Assembly: GCA_021464245.1 (NCBI GenBank)
Contig: JADCRB010000062.1
Coordinates: 144,616 to 208,615, forward strand
DNA from: Carallia brachiata
Lineage: Eukaryota; Streptophyta; Magnoliopsida; Malpighiales; Rhizophoraceae
DNA length: 64,000 nt
Direction: 5' to 3'
Each line of letters opens with the position of its first letter. The stretch's first letter is position 1. Under the pieces are notes generated by a model. It ran no database searches, had not been told where the DNA came from, and saw only the letters and a list, made by a program, of their open reading frames with translations. The position numbers were made by a program, and so were the translations under genes. This document shows positions 24,160-64,000 of the stretch, piece after piece.

Positions 24160-24339
24160 CAATCTCTTTGATATTGTTTACATTCTTGTTAACTTAAAAA
24201 GAGCTCTATGTTGTATTTTTAACAGTTGGGCTTCCAAGTGTTTGGGCTTTCAATTACCGTCATTCACACACAATCAAAAAATGAACCTTGAACTTACAAC
24301 ACCACAACAAGATAAGCCCAATAGGGCCAAGATATAAAA

Positions 24340-24682
24340 AGATGGCGGGACCTTGTGCTTTCTTATGCTAGGGGAAGACTTTTATGCTTCAATTCTTTAA
24401 GTGGCTAAAAGCCAATTTGTTTGAAGACTTGGCAAGTTCTCGGGGTGATAGATGGCTGAAAATCTTTGCCATTAGCTGTTGGTGTATATGGAGATAGAGG
24501 AATGATCAGGTTTTTGAGAGGACAAAATGAACCCACTACCCAAAATTTAGAATTATTTCATTGCTGGAGGAATATACTAAGCCTAAAGAGTTTGCAAGAG
24601 GTTGGAGTCAGGCCACTTAGTAGGGAGTTAATGGTGGGTTGGAAGCCCCCATACAGTGATTGGGTGAAGTTTAATTCGGATG
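24340..24682 (+). mobile_element. LINE RNase H region, left half, split by copia
   Basis: The plus frame has a tryptophan-rich linker and WKPPYSDWVKFNSD, the start of a LINE-type RNase H domain. The frame is cut at 24682 by the copia insertion and resumes at 31922 on the far side. Several stops and shifts show it is dead. Confidence 0.8.
24678..24682. repeat. Target-site duplication GGATG, left
   Basis: GGATG immediately precedes the 5' LTR and is repeated exactly at 31922-31926 after the 3' LTR. Five bases is the usual length for Ty1/copia insertions. Confidence 0.93.
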
Positions 24683-26140
24683 TGTTGGAAAATTCACACC
24701 TCATGCATACATTAGGAAAATGTTACTAAGTGTGAATTCATGTTTTGATGATGAGTGTTTTGATAATGAGCTATGAACCAATCTAACATAAGTACAAGTG
24801 AATTTCATTTGTATGTTCTTCAAGTATACAATTCAGGTTCAAGAAATTCAAAGAGGTATACATATGCCATCTTACACGTGCATTGAGGAGAAAGATCACA
24901 TTGACCCTTATTAAACTACTATCTTAGAAAGACAGCACAAGAGCAAATCTGTTAGGGCAGATTCCAGGTACCAAACTTACTCACTTGAGATATATTTTGA
25001 GCCTAATATATATATATATTTGCAGGACTATAAGTTTAGTTTCAAATGAGCTTAGTCGTGCAATTTTTGGAGTCCTAGAGAAAAACTTATGAATTTTATA
25101 CTAAGAGGGTACAAGCTGTCAGGAACCTTCAGTGCACATGGAGTGAATTGCAACGGCTGCCTAGAAGAGCACAAGATGAATTTGAAAGCGAAATTTTGTA
25201 TGTAGATTCTCTGTTCTGTCTATTGATCAATGCAAAAAGAATCAAATCAAAATTCACAGCCACTCGCAAGATATTACCGTTATACTAAAAGTGTGCAGAC
25301 TGTCTAACGAAACTTTAACGTCAGTATTCCAACATTTATTTGACTATGCTACACTCATTCATAAATAGTCACATTTTGTGGGTAGAGAGCTCTGACAGTC
25401 TACTAAACAGAAAAAAAGGAATCGTAATTTTTTAAGCTCTCTGTATTACATTATAGCCGTTCTACCAGAAGGTGTCAGACAAGAGAATCAATGCAAAGCT
25501 GTGAAGAGGAAAACAACAAAGTATGCATGTGCAACCCATGGCAACGGCTCTAACAAGTTGCTAACCTATCTTGCAGCTACTAAAACATCACTTGAAGATG
25601 TTTTACAGGAGAAGAAAGTCATATTCAAGTATTGTACAATCTCTCTCAAGGCAAAAAGCTTTCTTTACTCTAAGTGCTTTCATTGTAAAACTAGCATTCA
25701 AGCTAGTAAGTTTCATTTGTATTGTAATACATTGTGAGAATAGGTGAGAGCTCTCAAGTGGGACTTGTGAGGATCATCTTGTAAGGAGTTAGGGTTGAAC
25801 TCCAAGAAGGAAAACCTAAAAGAAAAGGGAAAGTGGTGTTGGCAAGTGGGACTTGTGCAACAAGCGTTTTGAAGGCGGACGCAAGGGTGTTTGCGGAGTC
25901 TTCTTGTAAACTGTACGGTGGTGATTGGTGCGCCCAAAGGCACCCCATAGTTGAACTCTCAAGAATCTCCAAGAGAGGGATTGTTGAGAAGACCAAGGAC
26001 GTAGCCATTTGGTGAACCTTGTAAAAATCGGTATTGTATTTCTTTCAATCTCTTGTCATTCATTTGCAGAAATTTTTATTTGAGGATTTCATTGTAAAGC
26101 CTATTCACCCCCCCTCTAGGCTTCACCCAAGGGACCAACA
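24683..26140 (+). repeat. 5' LTR of copia element
   Basis: 1,458 bp, beginning TGTTGGAAAATTCACACC and ending AAGGGACCAACA. It aligns along its whole length with 30458-31921. Confidence 0.95.
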
Positions 26141-26142
26141 TT

Positions 26143-26154
26143 TGGTATCAGAGC
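26143..26154 (+). other. Primer binding site for initiator methionine tRNA
   Basis: TGGTATCAGAGC stands two bases after the 5' LTR. It is complementary to the 3' end of plant initiator tRNA-Met, the standard primer of copia elements. Confidence 0.92.
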
Positions 26155-26195
26155 TTAACCTCACTTGTAAGGCTTAACATCCTTGAGGGATCCCC

Positions 26196-26882
26196 ATGGA
26201 ATCCTCATCCAATGAAAACAAGAGACCTTTCTTTGATGGTAGTGATTTTCAATACTATAAAGATCATATGGAAAGTTATCTTAAATTTAAGGGGATGAAA
26301 GTTTGGCAAAGTGTAGAAGAGGGACCATATGTGCCTAAGGAAGAAGTTGTTGATGATAAGGGAGTAAAACCTTGAGAGTAAAAACCAATAGAAAATGGGA
26401 TGAAGAGGACTATAAGAAAAAAAATAGATGAAAGAGCATATTATTATTTGAAAACGTCCATAGCTAGAAGTGAATATAACACCATCAAACATTGTAAAAA
26501 TGCTAAGGAAATTTGGAATACATTGTGTCTCTCAAATGAAGGGACATTAAAAGTTAGGAAAGTTAAACTTGGCATGCTTATGAAAGACTTTGAACTTTTC
26601 ACTATGAGACCAAATGAATCGGTTAAAAGTGTGTATGATAGACTCATGATTATTGCTAATGGACTAACCGATCTTGGCAAAGTGTTTGGAAAGGGTGAAC
26701 TTGTGCAGAAATTAATGAATTCGATGAATGAGGAATACGAAATGAAGATTAATGCCATTGAAGAAACTCACAACGTGGAGGAGCTAACCATGGAAGAGTT
26801 ACTTGGGTCCTTGATGACTCATGAGATCAAACTCAAAAGGAGAAGTGCATTACCACAAGTAGAACATCCTCAAAAAATGTAG
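26196..26882 (+). pseudogene. Copia gag with two in-frame stops
   Basis: From the ATG at 26196 the frame reads a copia-type gag polypeptide (UBN2 family): a FDGSDFQYYKDHM opening, then after the breaks a region with WNTLCLSNEG and MRPNESVKSVYDR. TGA at 26373-26375 and TAA at 26379-26381 interrupt the frame near residue 60, and it ends at the stop at 26880-26882. A further coiled-coil-like, acidic stretch follows in another frame (26888-27079). Near 27390-27435 a CFYCHKK motif looks like a retroviral-type zinc knuckle thrown out of frame. No functional particle protein can be made from this copy as read. Confidence 0.85.
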
Positions 26883-27601
26883 CACTCATGGCCCTAGATG
26901 ATGACGATGAAAGTGACAATGAGGTAATGGATCTTCCCTCTTATGAAGAACTTAGAGAAGCTTTTGATGAGTTATTGATCACATTTAAAAGGAAATGTAA
27001 ACAATATAAAGAGCAAAAGAAAGCATGTGAAAAACTTTTGTTAGAGAAAGATGAAATTATCTGGAAAATAGTCTTTTAAAAGAAGAACTTGAAAAGGCTA
27101 AATTAGATCATAAATCAACTTAGTGAGTTAAATTTTGTTAAACAAGAGCTTGCAATATCTAAAGAGGCCCTAACATCAAAGACAATTTACATCATGCTTT
27201 GGAAAAAGAAGTTGAGGACCTTAAAAAAAGAATTCAAATTTAGAAAAGTCTTTTCAAAATTCACATTAGGTAGCAATAAGTTAGATGAGATGTTATCTTT
27301 CAAAAGAAATTTTTTACAAATCCGGTTTGGGCTACCTCACTAAAAAAAAACTAATCCATAAAAGAAAAGAAAATGTTGTATCATGTTTTTATTGTCATAA
27401 AAAGGACACAAATTTCATGATTGTAGACTTAGAAGACCTAGTGATCCCAACAAGTATGTGTCATCTTCTAAAGTTTGGACAAAGCCTAATAAATTCAAAC
27501 AAGTATGGATGGTTAAAGATTCATGAAGAAGAATGATTGTTGTAACATTGAAGGACCCAAAAAGATATGGGTACCAAAATATTCTACATCTTATTTTGTA
27601 G

Positions 27602-28024
27602 GTGGAAAAGTGCTTGAAGGCAACATATTTTAAAGAAGATGTCATTTGGTACCTTGATAGTGGATGTGCAAGGCATATGACCGGAGAAGCATCATTTTTC
27701 TCCACACTAAAAAGCAAGGATGGAGGATGTGTCACGTTTGGAGACAATGGAAAAGGCAAAATCATTGGGGTTGGCACTATAGGTAACAATGTATCAAGTT
27801 TTATTGAGGATGTTGCTTTGGTAAGTGGTTTAAAGCACAACTTAATTAGCATTAGCCAATTGTGTGATAAAGGTTTTGAGGTATTATTCAAACCCATGAC
27901 TTGTGAAGTATATGATCCCCATACTAATGCATTGAGATTTGTAGGAAAAAGAAAAGGAAATGTGTATGTGCATGTTAAAACCCTAAGGTTTTATTTTTTG
28001 GTTTTGATGATTGCTAAACATTGA
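27602..28024 (+). pseudogene. Copia aspartic protease remnant
   Basis: The frame contains IWYLDSGCARHMTG, with the catalytic DSG, and continues with VGLKHNLISISQL-like residues (here LVSGLKHNLISISQLCDKGF) typical of copia protease and pre-integrase. Similarity stops near 27975, after YVHV. The remaining residues are read from unrelated LTR-like DNA. Integrase, which normally follows, is absent. Confidence 0.85.
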
Positions 28025-29226
28025 GAGTTACTAATATGTTAATTTAAGTGTGTAGTTAAATGATTTAATCAAATAAACATCAATTGAAACGGAAGCAATG
28101 CTAGCATAAGGCAACCATTGATAATAGGTCACATTCAGTGTAAGTATGGTGAACTTTAAAAGGCTCGTTTGCTCACATGTAGATGAACTAGATAATATGT
28201 TTATATACGGTTAGAAGGATAATTCTGTCTAGTTTCTGAATTTTCAAGAATCATCTCAATTGGATATTTTTGGAGGAAGTTATAGTCTATGAACTGAAAG
28301 GTGCTCAATCTGTCAAGGTAGACAGGATCAGTGCACTTTAAGAGATGATTGCGACCAAATGGGAAGGAACTAGCTGTTGAGTTTTATATTCGTACAAATA
28401 TAATTCTGTCTAGTTTCTAAATTGACCAGAATCACGCAAATTGGAGTTCTATAGAAGGCGATATTGCCAAAATACTAAAGGATGTACAGCCTGTCCCGTC
28501 CAGCAGGATCAGTCAACTTCCAGAAGGCACCACGGCTAGCTGGAGTGGAATCAGACCATGATCTAGACATGTATGAAAATCTCTATGAGTCTACTTTCAA
28601 ATGAAAGAAACGAGATATGATTTGGAGTTATACAGGTAGACTTATGATTGATTTTTTAAGAAGTGTCAGAGCTGTCCTATTGAGAAAGGAAACAAGCTTA
28701 AATTGAGTCTTGGTGATGCTGTCCAAAAGAGATCCGTTTGAACAAAATTGTGAGCTAAAAAAGAAGCTTTTCGAATCTCATAAAGCTACTGTTAGTACAA
28801 ATATGAAAGCTTGAAAATTCTAGCATGAGTATCATTCCATAATCATCTAAGCTTAATTTAGTAAGAGGTTTGCCAATGCTTTAGAATTAGTTGTGTGATG
28901 CATGTGCTTAGAATAAAATAGATACATATTTCATTTTCTAGATCAGGGCAAGAGCCCAAGATCGACATCTCACACACTTTCACAAGGTTTTACATTTTGC
29001 CCCACTTCTTTATCTCGGCAGTACAAACAGACTTGCCAAAATTGATAAGTACACACTTACAGAACAAATAACATCAACCACTTATTTATACACCAACCAT
29101 TACTCATGCATGTACTATGCACTACAAAACAAACCAACATCCCTACACATACATACATTCTAGTAAAGATTTGCATATTGGAATTCATATTCCAACGCCA
29201 GAAAACGTCTTCAGATCTTACCCCTT
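27980..29226. other. LTR-like filler between protease and captured gene
   Basis: The stretch has no coding sequence. ATTCTGTCTAGTTTCT occurs twice (near 28221 and 28401), heading two imperfect units of about 180 bp with phrases such as GTAGACAGGATCAGTGCAC that resemble the style of the LTRs. It may be a fragment of another copia LTR. From about 28880 to 29226 the minus strand reads like the 3' UTR of the homeobox gene. Confidence 0.45.
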
Positions 29227-29837
29227 TTAGTCCCTCCTGTAAGGTCCAAGGCGTAGTTTTAAATCCACAGGGTCCTCATCATTTGGCGGAATAGTAATGT
29301 TGACGCTACCGGGATTTCTTTGCTGATTGACATCGCCTGGATAAAGAGGAAAGAGAGTGAGTGTTTCCCTTCTTCCTCATGAGGAGGGTCGACTGAACTG
29401 CTGCTTACTGGAATGATGCTCCTTACTGGGTAAAAATACCTATGAGAGTTTGGTCTTTGACCCACATCAAAGATCTGAAATGGGAAGGAGAAAATCTCTG
29501 GTGGTAGGTGATGCTGGTTGGGATTTTCGTGAAAAATCATTCCAGTAACATTTGGCAAAATAGAGCCTGCACTGTTGAGATCTACAACAGGAGGCGCTAC
29601 GGCTCTTCTCAGATCGCGCCTTCGATTCTGCATCCATACTCTAATATGACTTGCCTGAACTGGACCATATTGTCTCAGCAGTGAGGCAAGCTGAGCAAGT
29701 TGTCGTGATGTGGGACAAGCTCCTTCAATGCGACAAAAAACATCTTCCAAGATCTGCAGTTGCTCTGGTTCTGGTCTCCATCTAGAATTGGAAGAGTCTC
29801 CAATCTCCAAGTTCTGATGGCTTAATGGTGGTCTCAT
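29227..29837 (-). pseudogene. Captured WUSCHEL-related homeobox (WOX) gene, one frame change
   Basis: WOX proteins are plant nuclear transcription factors controlling stem cells and organ initiation. On the minus strand the ATG at 29837 opens a 192-codon frame. Residues about 18-79 are a homeodomain: SRWRPEPEQLQILEDVF, then LRQYG, then helix 3 with RVWMQNRR. The usual WFQN has become WMQN. After a linker the WUS box TLTLFPLYPG is found in another frame (29335-29364), followed by DLKLRLG (29245-29265), an EAR-like motif, and TAA at 29227-29229. A single indel near 29365-29400 would explain the change. No intron interrupts the homeodomain. The gene lies antisense inside a copia element, so it is a captured copy; whether it is expressed is unknown. 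Confidence 0.88.
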
Positions 29838-30457
29838 CTTGTTGATCTGAAAGGTGAGTGAAAATTTTGAGATTCTGGAAACAACAAAGATGAAAGATGA
29901 AAGATGATTGATCCGGAAATTACGCCTGATTCTTTGGCGTAATAATTGGCCAACTGTCCTCCACTTTCACCTAACTGTCAGCTACTTCCGTCTGACCGTT
30001 CGCGACTTTTCTGACTGTGTGCCACATCTGCACCGTTTCTGATTGTATACCATGTTAGCTTCCACATAAGCAATTGACTGCTAAGATGGACTTCCACGTA
30101 AGCAATTTGACTGCGGTAATATTTTTGACCTACTCATGAACTATTATTAAAGGTAATGATCCACATTGGATTTTTGGTAACATAGTGACCTAATTTTGAA
30201 TAAAGACCTTTTGATAGATCATTTTTGTTATCTAAGAAGAAAATTGGGCATGTCACACCCCATGCATACATTAAGGGGGAGTCTTAATCTCTTAACCTAG
30301 TTAGCATTCATATTTTTTGTTTCAACCATTTTTATTGATGACAAAAAGGGGGAGAAAATTAAGAGAGAGCCATCAAGAAAGAGCATTTCTAGAGGAAACT
30401 TAGATTAAGGGGGAGCATCTATCTTAAAGGTTTTGTCATCATCAAAAAGGGGGAGAT
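29838..30457. other. Upstream region of captured WOX and 3' end of copia internal region
   Basis: Near the gene the minus strand reads a leader with ATCTTTCATC repeats and AACAAG before the ATG. A direct repeat CTTCCACRTAAGCAA(T)TTGACTG occurs at 30059-30080 and 30091-30113; its second unit holds an ACGTGG core when read on the minus strand. From about 30250 the sequence is retrotransposon 3' region with repeated GGGGGAG motifs. Confidence 0.5.
30444..30457 (+). other. Polypurine tract of copia element
   Basis: AAAAAGGGGGAGAT directly before the 3' LTR is the expected plus-strand primer site. Confidence 0.9.
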
Positions 30458-31921
30458 TGTTGGAAAATTCACACCCCATGCATACATTAGGAAAATGCTA
30501 CTAAGTGTGAATTTATGTTTTGATGATGAGTGTTTTGATAATGAGCTATGAACCAATCTAACATAAGTACAAGTGAATTTCATTTGTATGTTCTTCAAGT
30601 ATACAATTCAGGTTCAAGAAGTCCAAAGAGGTATACATATGCCATCTTACACGTGTATTGAGGAGAAATATCACATTGACCCTTATTAAGTTACTATCTT
30701 AGAAAGACAGCACAAGAGCAAATCTGTTAGGGCAGATTCCAGGTACCAAACTTACTCACTTGAGATATATTTTGAACCTAAAATATATATATTTTTGCAG
30801 GACTATAAGTCTAGTTTCAAATGAGCTTGGTCGTGCAATTTTTGGAGCCCTAGAGAAAAAATTATGAATTTTATACCAAGAAGGTACAAGCTGTCAAGAA
30901 CCTTCAGTGCACATGGAGTGAATTGCAACGGCTGCCTAGAAGAGCACACGACTAATTTGAAAGCAAAATTTTGTGTGTAGATTCTCGGTTCTGTCTATTG
31001 ATCAATGAAAAAATAATCACATCAAAATTCAAAGTCATCTGCAAGATATTACCGTTCTACTAAAAGTGTGCAGATTGTCTAACGGAACTTTAACGTCAGT
31101 ATTCCAATATTTACTTGACTATTCTATACTCATTCATAAATAGTCAAATTTTGTGCGTAGAGAGCTCTGACAGTCCACTAAACAGAAAAAAAGGAATCGT
31201 AATTTTTCAAGCTGTCTGTACCACGTTATAGCTGTTCTACCAGAAAGTGTCAGACAAGAAAATCAATGCAAAGCTGTGAAGAGGAAAACAACAAAGTATG
31301 CATGCGCAACCCATGACAACGGCTCTAACAAGTTTCTAACCTATCTTGCAGCTACTAAAACATCACTTGAAAATGTTTTACAGGGGAAGAAAGTCATATT
31401 CAAGTATTGTACAATCTCTCTCAAGGAAAAAATGCTTTCTTTACTCCAAGTGCTTTCATTGTAAAACTAGGATTCAAGCTAGTAAGTTTCATTTGTATTG
31501 TAATACATTGTGAGAATAGGTGAAAGCTCTCAAGTGGGACTTGTGAGGATCATCTTGTAAGGAGTTAGGATGGAACTCCAAGAAGGAAAACCTAAAAGAA
31601 AAGGGAAAGTGGTGTTGGCAAGTGGGACTTGTGCAACAAGTGTTTTGAAGGCGGACGCAAGGGTGTTTGCGGAGTTTTCTTGTAAACTGTACGGTGGTGA
31701 TTGGTGCGCCCAAAGGCACCCCATAGTTGAACTCTCAAGAATCTCCAAGAGAGGGATTGTTGAGAAGACCAATGACGTAGCCATTTAGTGAACATTGTAA
31801 AAATCGGTATTGTATTTCTTTCAATTCCTTATTTACATTCATTTGCAGAAATTTTTATTTGAGGATTTCATTGGTAAAGCCTATTCACCTCCCCCTCTAA
31901 GTTTCACCCAAGGGACCAACA
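30458..31921 (+). repeat. 3' LTR of copia element
   Basis: 1,464 bp from TGTTGGAAAATTCACACC to GGGACCAACA, matching the 5' LTR with scattered substitutions. GGATG follows it at 31922-31926. Confidence 0.95.
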
Positions 31922-32450
31922 GGATGGTGCATCTAAAGGCAACCCAGGGCTGGTGTGTGCCGTCGGGAAGGGGGTCATTAGAGATGGAGATGGTAGATGG
32001 GTGGTAAGCTTTGCTCAGAACATGGGTTTATGTGCCTCCCTTGCAGCTGAATTGTGGGGGGTTTAATCAGCGTTGGACTGCTTTAGAATTATGGCTTTCG
32101 GAAAATATGGGTGGAGTTGGACTCTAGAGTGGCATTGGAGTTTCTACAGAAAGGTCCCCCCACCCCCCAAACGCATCCACTAGCCAACCTAATTGGTGCT
32201 TGTCGTGAATTGGCATGCCATGAGTGGCATATTAAATTCTCTCATATTTATGGAAAAGGTAATTCGATCGTGGATTAGATGGCGAACTACGTATTCTCTC
32301 TTCCTAGGGACTTACACGTCTTCCACAATCTCCTTTCGGGATGACTTCCCGCTTACAACAAGACCCTATCGGAGTGTCCTACCCTGGATAATAAGTAGAT
32401 AGAGTTCACTTCAATCCATTAACTTAAACTTCCATGTTAAAAAAATAATA
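31922..32450 (+). mobile_element. LINE RNase H region, right half
   Basis: The frame cut at 24682 resumes with GASKGNPGL, then VIRDGDGRWVVSFAQNMG and AAELWGV followed by a stop, all typical of the LINE RNase H domain. Later pieces include HEWHIKFSHIYGKGN in shifted frames. An A-rich AATAATAAT tail at 32437-32464 probably marks the LINE 3' end. Confidence 0.82.
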
Positions 32451-39477: not shown

Positions 39478-40857
39478 CTAACCACACATATTCGGAGCAA
39501 TCCACACGGCAGGAGGATCTTCAATTTCTAAATGATCAATCCCCATAAATGGATGATAATAATCCACCGAGTCATCTTCCAAGTTGAAGACACCCACATC
39601 ATGATTGGTTCGATCATCACGACGACAACTATAATTTTTATAGGTCATACTTAGCTCATCATCTGCAAAATAAATTGAATTTTCCATCAATCCTGGGAAG
39701 TCTCTAGTAGAAAGAGAGAACGGACTTGTCTGACCTACAAATAAAGCCCGATCCTGCAAGTGTTCTACACGAGTCCAATTTGTAGGTGATGCAAGATCAA
39801 ATTTGTAGACATCAAAGTCAATAGTATTGTAGCTGCTGCTATTGTAGGGAGGATTACAACATAAGTTCCTTAAAAGATGCCTAACAACTAGTAGCAAATC
39901 TCCACACGACTCCACTAAATAAAGCTTCTTGATTCGTAGCCTTCCCGAGATTTCTTCAGATCCCTGGTACTTGGGCATGGGGTAATCTACATACCTGTCG
40001 ACTGAAATTCTTTTTATAGAAGATGGGTCATGGACATCCCAAGCTTCTATTGTTCCATGGGAACTAATGACATAAAATAGTTGGTCTTTGCTACAATATG
40101 TGACCGAATCATAATGGTCATATGGTGCCGGCACATCAACCCAAGTTGTATCCCCGAGCTTACAAAAAGCAAGGCGTGTTCTTAGATCTCCGCCATATAG
40201 AGCCATAACTGTGCAATTACTATTGCTTATAGTTGAGGCTGACGATGGAAGCGATGACAAAGCAAGTTGTCTTACAAGGCAATGGTAGAGTTCATGTCTT
40301 ATATCCCGGAAATGGAAGGACTGAAATCCACGCAATCGTAATCTGTACTTTTCTGCCGAGCCATCCCAGTTTCGAGTCACACCCACTACACAGGGAAGTG
40401 ATGTCAAGGATGGGAGTTCGATGACATCCTCAGATCTTTCTGAGGATGTAGAGAATAGAGGAGCCCATAGGTACAACCCGCATTCGTTGAAGTCAGCAAA
40501 GGCCACAAAACCGTTAGAAGACCAGAAATAGCGAGCAGTATTTGGCAGTATACTGCTCCTTTTCTTCTTAATGCCAAAAACTTGTTTATTCACAGGATTG
40601 AAAAAACGAAACACATTCTCGCCGGTGGCTTCGATGTTAACAGACGGCAGAACCAGATGGGGAGCCTGATCGGTGATGCAACTGACAAGCGGTGGCAACC
40701 TAGTTGACGACTGCGGCTGAGGTTTCTCCTGGTGAGAAGGCCTACTCGTCATATAAGTACTAAATGATGCATGGAATCGGAGACCCCAAGCAGCGGCACC
40801 ATCGAACTTAGGAATTCCACCGGTAACATAATGCATGAGAAATTTTGGAGTGACCAT
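39478..40857 (-). CDS. DUF295 / KIB1-4 beta-propeller protein, intact
   Basis: This is a 459-residue uninterrupted frame and the only intact host gene here. Family features are FRFFNPVNKQVF, a GLYLWAPL blade, AFCKLGDTTWVDV, then IEAWDV, LYLVESCGDLLLVVRH, ALFVGQTSPFSLS, NSIYFADDE, DVGVFNLEDDS and the closing PPAVWIAPN. No F-box precedes the propeller. The N-terminus is basic and rich in Ser and Thr, which suggests an organelle-targeting peptide, as reported for the DUF295 organellar (DOA) group. An upstream exon at 41731-41766 could supply a better presequence; joining it in phase at 40806 would replace the first 16 residues. The exact biochemical role of the family is not settled. It is the intact relative of the two broken copies at 868 and 43523, in opposite orientation. 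Confidence 0.9.
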   Translation of the reverse strand: MVTPKFLMHYVTGGIPKFDGAAAWGLRFHASFSTYMTSRPSHQEKPQPQSSTRLPPLVSCITDQAPHLVLPSVNIEATGENVFRFFNPVNKQVFGIKKKRSSILPNTARYFWSSNGFVAFADFNECGLYLWAPLFSTSSERSEDVIELPSLTSLPCVVGVTRNWDGSAEKYRLRLRGFQSFHFRDIRHELYHCLVRQLALSSLPSSASTISNSNCTVMALYGGDLRTRLAFCKLGDTTWVDVPAPYDHYDSVTYCSKDQLFYVISSHGTIEAWDVHDPSSIKRISVDRYVDYPMPKYQGSEEISGRLRIKKLYLVESCGDLLLVVRHLLRNLCCNPPYNSSSYNTIDFDVYKFDLASPTNWTRVEHLQDRALFVGQTSPFSLSTRDFPGLMENSIYFADDELSMTYKNYSCRRDDRTNHDVGVFNLEDDSVDYYHPFMGIDHLEIEDPPAVWIAPNMCG

Positions 40858-43522: not shown

Positions 43523-44827
43523 ATGAGGACTCCAATCGTTAGAACTATGAATCTGGGTGATGCTGGACGATTCTCCTGTACTTGGACCAGCAGCACATCT
43601 CTATTGGAAGAGCTGATTAGCACATATTCGAGCCCATCGCCTCCACCACCACCGACACCAGCGGCAGCATCTCAGGCGGATGCTGCACCGCCACCGCTAA
43701 TGATGCTTCCTAGGATGGGCGTGCGCAAAGATGGTGGCTTGTTCTACCGGCTTTTCAACCCCGTTGACAAGAAATTCAGTGTTGTTACGAAGCGCATCAA
43801 TCTTCCTCACACTGCTCAAACGATGACATCATCGAAAGGTTGGGTGACTTCTTTCAACCCTCGTGATGGTGCCTTGTATGTGTGGGATCCCTTGTCTGAT
43901 TCTGACGTGCATAAGGATGTCCTTAAGTGCCGTCTGCTGGAACTCTCCCTATTGTGGTGGACATTCGATTTGTCCGGCGAAATGGTTCTCCTACGACTAC
44001 CATCAGAGATTTTGCTCTTTTCGAATTTATCAGGCACCGAGCTAAGCTGACTAACAGAGAGATGGCATCAACCAATGGATCTTTTTCAAAAGCACCAGAT
44101 GATGACAATCGCTGCATTGCCTTTGGTTGTTATGGATCTGTTCCAGCTCTTCACTACTCTGAGATTGGAGGCTCCGCTGGAAAGCCTTGGATGCCCCTTT
44201 AGGCCATTACGATCAAGTGCTAGCGTCATCTAAAATCGATAGATTATTTTTTCCCGTAATCTTCCTGGAGAGATTGAAGCTTGAAGCTCTAACAAAACGG
44301 ACTTTGGTCACTGAGGCCCATCGTATCTCTTTTAAGAATGATTATCTAATCAAAACAGATTCGAATGGTCGGACTTATTATAAGAAGAGTTTGATTATTT
44401 GGTTGAATCATCTGGGGATCTTTTGTTAGTCACCAGGTACATACACCATTATTTAATGATGACAGGTTTAATGGTATTTCCTATTATAGAACAAATGGAT
44501 TTGTCGTTAGCAAGCTGAATTTTGGTCTAAGAACGTGGGAAGCTGTAAATTGTTTGAACGGATATGCCATATTCTTGGGTGTGAGTGGCGAGAGCTTTTC
44601 TCTTCGTGCTTGTGACCATTCTGGACTTGAGGGAGATGCCATTTATTTTGCCCCTGCCGACAAATTTGGTGAGTATGGTGGTCAGGATTCTGGTGTTTTT
44701 CGCCTGGCAGATGAGAAAATTGATCGATATGATGATCAACTTACTCGCTATCAGAAGCTTGATTGGCGTTATGGTCTACAATACCACCACCTTCTGGGTT
44801 GCTCCTCGTTGTTCACCTTCGCTTTGA
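43523..44827 (+). pseudogene. DUF295 / KIB1-4 beta-propeller protein, copy 2, multiply frameshifted
   Basis: It has the same gene content as copy 1, starting MRTPIVRTMNLGDAGRF. Up to the stop it differs from 868-2170 by about eight short indels (near 43926, 44176, 44250, 44288, 44385, 44453, 44775 and 44793) and almost no substitutions. Several are lost bases in runs, such as AAGGTG to AAGTG, CCGGCT to CCGCT, and one T fewer in a T run. The frame therefore breaks repeatedly, but all propeller segments are still present in one frame or another. Such a pattern is more typical of consensus errors in long-read assembly than of neutral decay, so an intact gene may lie beneath. Confidence 0.85.
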
Positions 44828-57019: not shown

Positions 57020-58440
57020 ATCATCAAAGGCCCATTCTCGATTCCCCTCCGAACGGCAGCCATTGACCACTGTACTTGGAACCCTAATTCCACAACTCAA
57101 AACAAGCTGTAGGGGGACCATTAAATTTAAATCTAATTTGCACGAGTGGGCACGAATTTGGCTCATCTTTCCTTCCTCAGTATCCTGGAGTTTCAGTTCA
57201 GGCAGGGGCTGCCGATTTTTTGGAAGGATTTCCGATGCAGGAGAGATATGGTAAATAATTTTAAAAAAAAACTACATAGTATATTAGTAATAAAGTTAGT
57301 AAGTAAGATTTAAACTGTTAGATCTTAAAAACATATTAAATTTTTAAAAAATAAAATATTAAATTAATTATATATCTTATGCATATTGTACAATTTATAT
57401 TTACCTAAGCCTGTGCATAATTTAATGGGGGCGAGCTACAAATCATCTCATCCAACTGACGCGTGGAGTTTTGAAATTGAAGAACAAAATGTCTCGTACA
57501 AACCACGAGTCGGTTGGCCGAGATTCCTTGAATTTAACCAATGACTCAAAATTATCATAAACTGTGCCGGTCTGGTTTGTTTTGTTGTGCTTTCGTTTAT
57601 TTAATTATGAGGGATACAAGTTTGATAGCAAAGTTGCAGCCAATTGCAGCGAAAGCAAATTCCTGAAAATCTGAGATAAGTGATGGAACTCCTTGAATTT
57701 ACAGTGCCTTCAGCATCGGGAATTGAAGTTTCTCCATTCAAGTCATAAAATATAACTTAATTACTGAATCGTAGGTATAATTTTTGTATTCTCTAACAGC
57801 TTCTGTAATTATTTATGAACTATGTAATCATTTGCTGATATTCTAGATTCAAATTGATGATTGGTTGTTGGTCTTAATCAATGCATTGACTAGATGCTCA
57901 TAGGGCTATTGGTCGTAGTTTATAATAGAACTATTGATGTAGCTTGTGGACATGCATGGCATTTTTCCAACTAAATTTGTAGTGCTAGTAATTACCCAGG
58001 CTATAAGTAACCTAAGCAGGAATCAGTTGAAGAAACAAAAACCAAGTTAAGAAACTTGGCTTGAAACATTCCCTTCAATAATTCTCTATTCTTTGGAGAA
58101 AAGGGCCCAAGTGAGAAAGTGGACATTGAAGAGAGATCATCTTTGCAGGCATGACTTTTAGCGCATGTCTCTAGAGCTTCCAATGTAGTATGGTGGCCAC
58201 ATCTCTTACCTAGCAAAGGAAGACAAGGAAAATGCTAGTCAATAAAGTCTATTAGAGCAGGGCTTGCCACTACACAAGAACAGAAAGTCTATCCCACATT
58301 TTGGAGAAAAGGAGAGGCTGGAGAGCTCCATTTTATATTTATTGGAAACCATTTCTCCAGCTGGGCGTATACAACAAAGTAGTACACTGTGGAAAGAAAA
58401 CAGTTAGACAACAAAGATGATGGGGTCACTCATAGTTTGT
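57020..58440. other. A2 counterpart of 13405-14835
   Basis: It contains the short unassigned frames 56960-57166 minus and 58001-58216 minus. No recognised gene. Confidence 0.4.
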
Positions 58441-58605
58441 TCATGCGGAAAGCGGGGGAGAAAGGCCGAAATCAAGTGTCCAGAATTTAAATGATCCTTT
58501 GACAAAATCATTGTAACCACCCTTCAATCCCAGAGTTTTGTTCACCAACCCATCTCTCACAAATGGGTAGCTCAGCAAGTTCCCAAGGGATACATTCACT
58601 GCCTC
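58441..58605 (-). pseudogene. Last exon of beta carbonic anhydrase pseudogene, copy 2
   Basis: A 165-base exon reading [20 protein letters not shown] and ending with a stop at 58441-58443, matching 14836-15000. The exons further upstream seen in copy 1 are missing because the block ends near 58688 and gypsy DNA follows. Confidence 0.85.
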
Positions 58606-58758
58606 CTGCATCATAGTTCATTACACATGGTGAGCAACAAATACCCTTCGAACAAGTATATGCTTTGTTCCTGCCTAGATAGGAATTAAACTCAAATTTT
58701 ACCAGTTACAAATTTTTGGCACGCTCGATTGGACCTCTTCAACTCTCATCTCTTATTC

Positions 58759-58988
58759 CTAAAAAAAAAAAAAAAAAAAAAGTAAAAAGAAGCAGCAGAG
58801 AAAAGAAAAAAAAAAAAAAGAAAAAAAAGGAAAAAAAAAGAGCCTAGAAAAGAAGAAAAGGAAAAAGAAAAATAAAAAAAAGAAAAAAGAAAAACAAAAA
58901 GGAAAAGAGAAAAAAAACAAAATAGAGAAAAAAACGAAAACGGTAAAAAAGTAAAAAAAAAAAAAGTAAAAAAAAAGTGAAAAAAATA
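58759..58988. repeat. A-rich purine tract in gypsy leader
   Basis: About 230 bases almost wholly of A with interspersed G and a few C or T (AAAAGAAAAAAAAGG-type). It lies between the leader and the first gag ATG at 59014. Confidence 0.9.
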
Positions 58989-62758: not shown

Positions 62759-64000
62759 TAGGCTTTGGCTGTACAAGTAGAGGCAAAAATATCAAGTCTA
62801 TTGGATCACTTTATAATATTGGGTCCATAATTGAGCTACACATATGATCTGATTTTAATAAAAATAGAAAATCCAATTAATGGCAATCCAATTAGCTTTT
62901 AGATTGAAGCTATTATGTACGACCACAAGTTCAATATACAACACTTGCAAGCATCGAAAGAATAGCCTAAATGTTGTGAGTAAACACCTTTTTCCCAAAC
63001 TTTCATGTGAATGTGAGTCCCATCTCAATAGCGAATTGGAAAAGTTAGAATCAGATCATAGTTGGTTATTTAATCATTTTAATTATAGACCAAACAAGGA
63101 AGATCACTTTCCAGCATAAGCAACTCACAAAACTCTTTCAAATTACTAAAGTAATTGATATCATCAAAAGAGCTTTGTTTACATCTTGAACCAGACAACA
63201 ATCTCACAGTTTAATTTTTCTCTTTTGCTGCGGTGCTGCTACCTCTAGTCTCAAAAGTTGCTTTAAGACGGTTTCTCAAATTGGCCTTTGCTCTACACTA
63301 ATTTAGATTCATCTTTATTATATTGTTATTAAGCTCTACACTTAATTTATATTCATTTTCATTTTTTTGCAAAATGGTTGGCATGCTAAAGCTGTTGGGA
63401 GAGCCTACATTGAAAACAAGATGGTGAAGAGCTCAAGTTTTGCTATGGTGAACAACTTGCAAGTTTCGTTATGGTAAACAACTTTAGTATTAAAAAGGCT
63501 TTTTAAGTTTTTAATTAACTTTATATATGTCTCTTTTGTTATGTTTTTTTTTTATAGAGAAGACAAAAGATAAATTCTACATATGCTTTTGATACAAGAC
63601 AAAAGATGAATTCCACATATGCTTTTGATAGGAGATAAAAGATGAACTCTACATATGCCCTTCCTAATTATATTCTGGTTTTTTGTTAATAGTTGTGTTG
63701 AAACTAAGCAATTAATTGTATAGAATGAGTATTTTGTTAATGGTTGTATTGAAACCATGCAACTGGTATTGTAGTTGATATGCTTGACTTAGGGATATTT
63801 GGTTCAAGGATTTTTTTATTTGAATGAGAATGAGAATACGTCATTCCTTTTTTAGTGTTTGATAAGAGGTAATCTCATCATCATTCCTTTAATTTTGGAA
63901 ATGAGATTCCCTTATATATAAAAATCACTCATTCCCCTTTACTCATAAATAATCTCATTCCCATTCCATTCCCCCTTCTTTGGTAGAAGTAAGGGGTCAT
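62759..64000. repeat. Segmental duplication, copy C2
   Basis: It matches 21480-22682 in direct orientation up to the window end. It includes the 79-codon frame at 62880-63119, an extra 60 bp near 63300-63350 with a repeated CTCTACACTAATTTA-type motif, the tandem repeats and the left arm of element E1. The final bases AGGGGTCAT match the start of element E2. Confidence 0.93.

Follow-up and report, generated by a model that had tools for sequence, protein, structure and literature searches.

A copia-type LTR retrotransposon of Carallia brachiata (element A, 24683-31921, plus strand) holds, where integrase, reverse transcriptase and most of RNase H would be expected, a mosaic insert of about 2.2 kb that includes an antisense homeobox gene of the WUSCHEL (WUS) type. 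The sequence analysed, referred to here as the window, comprises 64,000 bases of contig JADCRB010000062.1 with a G+C content of 34.8%. We give about an even chance to the reading that a decayed, non-autonomous Ty1/copia element captured the mosaic together with its WUS-type gene and then landed at this site, the cargo now being an inert passenger. The data fit both a capture that preceded the last jump and a nested insertion that came after it; we favour capture, and nested insertion is nearly as good an account.

The host element and its mosaic insert

Element A displays the structural features of a Ty1/copia retrotransposon, with near-identical LTRs ending in TG...CA, a perfect 5-bp target-site duplication, a PBS and a polypurine tract (Table 1). 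The PBS reads TGGTATCAGAGC and is presumably of the initiator-methionine tRNA type, while AAAAAGGGGGAGAT is found directly 5' of the 3' LTR. The copia element with two LTRs and a perfect target duplication that had been described in the earlier note was therefore recovered by LTR alignment and by the presence of GGATG on both sides. Alignment of the LTR pair gave 1,388 identical and 69 substituted positions (47 transitions, 22 transversions) with 8 gap columns, corresponding to a K2P distance of 0.049. At rates of 1.3e-8 or 7e-9 substitutions per site per year, this divergence places the insertion at approximately 1.9-3.5 million years ago.

Table 1. Features of element A and its cargo (window positions; a dot marks a feature given without strand).
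Feature	Position	Strand	Basis and remarks
Target-site duplication, left copy (GGATG)	24678..24682	.	Flank comparison
5' LTR of element A (TGTTGG...CCAACA)	24683..26140	+	LTR alignment
PBS	26143..26154	+	Read in sequence, after 5' LTR
gag, copia type	26196..26879	+	Pfam PF14223, 1.9e-26 for 26382-26879; broken by stops 26373-26375 and 26379-26381
Protease / Pol_BBD region, final pol part before insert	27602..27969	+	Pfam PF22936, 9.1e-20, piece 27602-28021
LTR-like fragment of a related family (LTR-B)	27970..28900 (right edge approximate)	+	Scores against the LTR of element A; same direction as element A
Homeobox gene, 3' flank	28901..29226	-	Sequence composition; no A or T run of at least 7
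WUS-type homeobox coding sequence	29227..29837	-	Start codon ATG 29837; stop of the ancestral frame 29227-29229; single frameshift near 29370
EAR-like DLKLRLG	29245..29265	-	Out of frame with homeodomain
WUS box TLTLFPLYPG	29335..29364	-	Out of frame with homeodomain
Homeodomain, residues 18-77	29607..29786	-	Pfam PF00046, E 3.7e-7
Homeobox gene, 5' flank (5'UTR / possible promoter)	29838..30190 (right edge approximate)	-	Sequence
Copia RNase H C-terminal tail (putative)	30193..30297	+	Motif, 35 residues, no Pfam match
Polypurine tract	30444..30457	+	Read in sequence
3' LTR of element A	30458..31921	+	LTR alignment
Target-site duplication, right copy (GGATG)	31922..31926	.	Flank comparison

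When element A was removed and the flanks were joined through a single GGATG, one frame was open over the junction (...DWVKFNSD/GASKGNPGLV...). We take this frame (24300-24682 plus 31922-32330) to be the RNase H of a LINE; no Pfam match was obtained for either flank separately or for both joined. Because the flanks rejoin in one open frame and share a single target duplication, element A inserted as one unit. A resident gene around which the LTRs had been placed separately, an alternative raised in the earlier note, was rejected on the same two observations.

Elsewhere in the window, a large direct segmental duplication (1-22683 / 42597-64000) has blocks of 93-97% identity at a spacing of 41-44 kb and extends past the right end, and a second copy of the insertion site of element A would fall just beyond position 64000. 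Within this duplication 679-1632 and 43523-44050 encode a common protein sequence with no Pfam match at 0.01. Matches to the KIB1-4 beta-propeller (PF03478) were found at 1622-2170 and 39478-40857 (minus), and a long imperfect A-rich tandem array (58761-58986) lies close to the right edge of the duplicated block 57020-58689. No tRNA was found in the window, and no Rfam family reached its gathering score.

The coding capacity of element A was surveyed with a Pfam scan covering all 41 stop-to-stop pieces of at least 40 aa in 26141-30457, plus the 35-residue RNase H tail. Copia-type gag and protease are present (PF14223, PF22936), and only the gag, Pol_BBD and homeodomain pieces attained the curated cut-off. 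Integrase and reverse transcriptase had no match in any of the 41 pieces, and since neither enzyme was detected element A is considered a non-autonomous derivative. Twelve matches under the curated cut-off (best: malic, E 0.0022, 18.3 bits versus 23.1) were treated as chance. Downstream of the insert pol resumes with NKDLLIDHFCYLRRKLGM, which we take to be the last residues of copia RNase H. A stop-free stretch of 191 codons without a Pfam match was also observed on the minus strand at 27418-27990, antisense to the protease region.

The gag-protease part of element A carries about a dozen lesions according to a hand count made by eye on the translated frames, compared with 4.5 expected since insertion from the LTR rates. 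With this expectation, the chance of at least 12 lesions is 0.002 and that of at least 8 is 0.09. The excess weakly suggests that element A had decayed by the time of its last jump and was mobilised in trans.

The left break in pol lies at about 27970, and the insert extends from there to approximately 30190, comprising an LTR-like piece and the antisense homeobox gene with its flanks. It had been proposed in the earlier note that a host gene had replaced integrase and reverse transcriptase. Both enzymes are indeed undetected and an antisense WUS-type gene is found in their place, but the insert is not the gene alone, as approximately 900 bp of partly LTR-like sequence separates the end of the protease from the 3' flank of the homeobox gene. 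Compared with the LTR of element A, positions 28170-28520 scored 285 (maximum of 60 resamples 187), positions 28480-28900 scored 244 (maximum of 60 resamples 216) and the whole of 27970-28960 scored 395 (maximum of 60 resamples 368). The left 330 bp of the insert (27970-28300) scored 157 and did not rise above 60 resamples (mean 144, maximum 215). This LTR-like part also contains an old tandem duplication of approximately 180 bp (28149-28454 / 28331-28635; 61% identical, E 7e-19). No microhomology was established at the insert junctions and no notable words were shared at the edges of the homeobox module, the longest shared direct word (10 bp, 28294/29847) lying away from them.

The first bases of the insert, TGTTAAAACCC, resemble an LTR end with its TG start and lie directly at the pol break. 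This feature is awkward for capture, as a beginning at or near an LTR-like TG start, with equally oriented LTR-like sequence behind it, fits nested insertion too. According to that model, a complete element A landed first, LTR-B with or beside the homeobox gene then inserted into pol, and a deletion took away what else there was of pol and of the LTR-B element, such that the gene was never carried by element A. Nested insertion is the primary composite pattern reported in long plant sequences (PMC1950507), and we regard the model as a serious contender that falls short of being probable. It requires at least two insertions plus a deletion with one end in the RNase H tail. Over its first 330 bp the insert is no more similar to the LTR of element A than resamples are, and the hand-counted excess of gag-protease lesions weakly suggests that element A was already defective at landing.

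The homeobox gene and its relatives

The minus-strand ATG frame of the cargo has 192 codons (29262-29837, stop 29259-29261). The window has four ATG frames of at least 192 aa; among 40 second-order Markov resamples, one had such a frame. Searched against all PDB sequences, the frame matched STENOFOLIA (6e-9) and WUSCHEL (5e-8), with no other match at E <= 0.1. On a profile of fetched WOX5/7 proteins it scored 22.2 bits, with 7.1 bits for the best of 1,000 shuffled versions. AlphaFold2, run with an alignment including 11 WOX5/7 proteins, predicted three helices with block-mean pLDDT values of 86-95 over the homeodomain (whole mean 63), and the 11 best Foldseek matches of the model were all STENOFOLIA and WUSCHEL chains. 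Because WOX proteins were part of the alignment, the prediction supports the fold and is no independent proof of family. Judged by its sequence, the homeodomain is of the WOX type. The minus-strand WOX-type homeodomain proposed in the earlier note was thus confirmed by Pfam, PDB, fold and profile matches, and the profile search on which that note had staked its proposal returned a match to WOX.

The earlier note had also read the WUS box and the terminal DLKLRLG together with the homeodomain. Both motifs are present on the minus strand, but they lie in a different frame, in a second open stretch at 29230-29376 that ends at the stop TAA (29227-29229). TLTLFPLYPG is presumably a perfect match to the WUS-box consensus; the window contains the pattern T[LI]xLFP[LIM] a single time, and it was found in 2 of 60 resamples. 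Codon-position G+C in frame 1 was 0.58/0.48/0.35 and 0.55/0.40/0.38 up to approximately codon 156 and 0.39/0.39/0.61 beyond it, and the tail frame had 0.59/0.43/0.39. This switch of coding-type G+C from frame 1 to the tail frame indicates a single frameshift in the purine run near 29370. Read through the frameshift, the ancestral protein would have had approximately 204 residues. As a consequence of the frameshift, the present frame would encode a homeodomain protein without a WUS box, and because the box lies behind the frameshift we describe the gene as derived from a WUS-clade WOX rather than as a member of the clade. RWxP, the WUS box and an LxLxL end are combined in 108 of the 120 listed WOX5/7 proteins; the cargo has all three in the WOX5/7 order, the last two in another frame.

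No recognisable intron was found from the homeodomain to the WUS box. An intron between the two as the cause of the frame change was rejected: frame 1 stays open throughout this region, both remaining frames contain stops, the composition is of the coding type, and the purine-rich sequence ahead of the WUS box would make a poor splice acceptor. This uninterrupted stretch suggests a spliced copy, while a splice-acceptor-like sequence in the 5' flank just upstream of the ATG indicates that the part ahead of it may be unspliced. In cotton the number of exons per WOX gene is two to four and in Arabidopsis one to four, with the homeodomain within one exon (PMC5501002).

The cargo homeodomain is 29-38% identical to the 12 WOX homeodomains with which it was compared: 17/57 positions with WUSCHEL, 19/56 with STENOFOLIA and 16-21/56 with ten others, of which nine were Arabidopsis stretches and one came from P0120. 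The WUSCHEL homeodomain, compared with eight members of its own clade, is identical at 35-40 of 56 positions. With such low identity, an ordinary WOX is unlikely to have been the donor, and the small RNA against the parent WOX suggested in the earlier note is, for a conserved parent, not supported either. Identity to WOX9, 11 and 13, which lie outside the WUS clade, was 19-20/56 and as good as to the WUS clade; the features that point to the WUS clade are therefore the WUS box, the EAR-like end and a loop insertion.

Of the 27 columns invariant in 13 WOX sequences (11 WOX5/7, WUSCHEL and STENOFOLIA) the cargo keeps 12, and in 6 of the 15 changed columns one hydrophobic residue replaces another (hand count). 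WUSCHEL makes base contacts through R38, Q89, N90 and R94, and R94, which reads G in TGAA, is reported to be strictly conserved in WOX (PMC7203112, PMC8329861). The first three residues are kept in the cargo, and the position of R94 is occupied by an aspartate (D75), from which a missing contact to the G of TGAA would be predicted. One extra residue in loop I has been reported as unique to WUSCHEL (PMC7203112). The cargo likewise carries a one-residue loop I insertion, aligning without gaps to WUSCHEL and with one gap to STENOFOLIA and the 11 WOX5/7 proteins; its exact place is ambiguous, and the residue aligned to WUSCHEL Y54 is not a tyrosine.

Comparison of the 192-residue frame with plant proteins, as suggested in the earlier note, gave a divided result. 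In a large protein database, the 192-aa ORF yielded 109 word-sharing candidates, none at E <= 1e-3, and the 204-aa read-through yielded 161, none at E <= 10. This database scores only proteins that share exact 5-residue words, such that relatives at 30-50% identity would escape. Plant WOX proteins are contained in it, as a WOX5 query returned 1,697 matches, of which 120 were listed. Compared directly with these 120 WOX5/7 proteins, the cargo scored 34.6 bits at best (E about 0.005 at full database size), and the best 40 local matches among them were 27-36% identical. Since the direct comparison does score, we attribute the null result to the exact-word filter; it excludes close relatives among the proteins searched, not distant ones. 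Scans of IMG/VR and GTDB detected no relative. AtWOX15 was placed in no sub-clade in one WOX survey (PMC5501002). As AtWOX15 is an odd WOX that nevertheless exists as an ordinary gene, an unannotated cellular donor would be the simplest source of the cargo.

Probable selection before arrival and a proposed route of capture

The history of the cargo was examined with a neutral simulation in which substitutions without indels were applied to 204 codons at 35% G+C, starting from the WUSCHEL homeodomain plus random codons. Of 400 runs per level, one was stop-free at 60% identity, one at 50%, none at 42% and none at 36%, with mean numbers of stops of 6.3, 7.8, 9.0 and 9.7, respectively. The real sequence has no stop in either part of its frame. 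Compared with the simulation, this suggests that most of the divergence probably predates the gene's time as a passenger and accumulated while selection maintained an open, folded protein. Thus, as far as the simulation can indicate, the cargo at capture was probably a WUS-type gene under selection, fast-evolving or orphan, and not a drifted copy of an ordinary WOX.

The simulation bears directly on the model that an ordinary processed retrocopy of a normal WOX drifted to its present form within the element. Although the lack of a recognisable intron is in keeping with such a copy, drift to 36-42% identity would introduce approximately 9-10 stops in 204 codons without a single stop-free run at either level, and the module ends have neither an A or T run of at least 7 nor a target duplication; we consider this model highly improbable. 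A retrocopy made by a LINE was rejected for the same missing A or T run and the lack of a target duplication of its own; an old tail could have decayed.

Since arrival, the LTR rates predict 1.53 disabling lesions in 604 bp of the gene, and one is seen. This agreement suggests that the gene was probably intact at or shortly before arrival, and the lesion count relative to LTR divergence is consistent with neutral evolution of the cargo thereafter.

Unit insertion, the lost enzymes, the WUS-type origin, constraint before arrival, neutrality since and the LTR-B homology were all counted in favour of capture. Constraint is read here from the simulation together with the codon-position composition and the 12 invariant columns kept. 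According to this favoured model, the mosaic would have arisen in the element or its parent, either through aberrant reverse transcription or because it recombined with an LTR nearby, producing an element with gag, protease and an RNase H tail in which the mosaic took the place of the missing enzymes. Mobilised by enzymes supplied in trans, this element would have jumped once and landed here some millions of years ago, carrying an intact gene that subsequently drifted neutrally and acquired one frameshift. Today the gene is most likely an inert passenger. Transcription from its own 5' flank, if any, would give a homeodomain protein lacking the TOPLESS-recruiting WUS box, and if the element were active, LTR-driven transcripts would run antisense to the homeobox gene. 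The orientation of the cargo speaks against capture: transduced genes usually lie in sense, antisense being unusual (PMC7264820), and simple switching of template to a sense mRNA does not account for an antisense cargo.

Comparison with known systems

Antisense reading frames within LTR elements, as observed here, are known from Grande (gene23), RIRE2, Retand (ORF4) and PvRetro13; the gene23 product is nuclear and ORF2 of PvRetro13 carries an SMC domain (PMC7264820). These frames lie between pol and the 3' LTR and recur in most copies of their families; as described in that source, their origin is mostly unknown and no similar genes were found outside elements (PMC7264820). The cargo of element A, in contrast, replaces most of pol with the RNase H tail downstream and clearly originated from a host gene; one copy of it is known. 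Of the features of the aORF-3R class it thus has the antisense orientation and not the position between pol and the 3' LTR.

In a further model, a lineage of elements acquired a repressor gene of the WUSCHEL type in antisense, and the gene long evolved within elements under selection, as an accessory gene. Extreme divergence combined with coding constraint, the lack of a relative in the protein-database searches and an antisense placement as in Grande, RIRE2 and Retand (PMC7264820) would be accounted for. However, one copy is known and that copy is broken, the same data are explained by a cellular WUS paralog that evolves fast or lacks annotation, and the extra frames of Grande, RIRE2 and Retand do not replace pol (PMC7264820); we therefore consider this model unlikely. 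Were it true, the gene would be an antisense extra frame of recognisable host-gene origin with a homeodomain diverged beyond the cellular WOX compared, and it might steer how the element is expressed or silenced in cells of the meristem or in germline precursors.

Compared with WUSCHEL and the WUS clade, the cargo has the RW arm, the long loops, the extra loop I residue and the Q and N of the recognition helix, and like WUS-clade WOX proteins it has a WUS box and an EAR-like end, though its box is out of frame. It departs from them in its low homeodomain identity and in the aspartate at the R94 position. The cargo suggests that a WUS-type gene with a homeodomain about one third identical to the WOX homeodomains compared was once intact and selected in some plant, a lineage that the protein-database searches did not recover.

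Among plant elements that carry host sequence, Bs1 of maize is not known to encode reverse transcriptase. Like element A it holds host gene sequence within an LTR element, but its segments derive from a proton ATPase, a xylan endohydrolase and a beta-1,3-glucanase, none of them full-length (PMC13317346), whereas element A contains one nearly whole transcription-factor coding sequence, in antisense and adjoining a fragment of another LTR. The Angela and Opie complexes resemble the present case in combining more than one parent sequence per insertion with a single target duplication; attributed to template switching, they fuse two retroelements, and the available text of their description mentions no host gene (PMC1950507). 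Copia and Gypsy elements have been observed beside WOX genes in a cotton survey (PMC5501002), and a word search of the main text of a rice and sorghum survey found none of the words 'homeobox', 'homeodomain', 'antisense' and 'WUS' (PMC3726574). No WOX gene inside an LTR retrotransposon was seen in the literature searched, which included few subscription papers. Gene capture by plant LTR elements is itself well described, from Bs1 to 1,343 cases in sorghum (PMC13317346, PMC7264820). An element with an antisense frame of clear host origin provides a test case for the idea that host regulatory genes may be a source of antisense extra frames.
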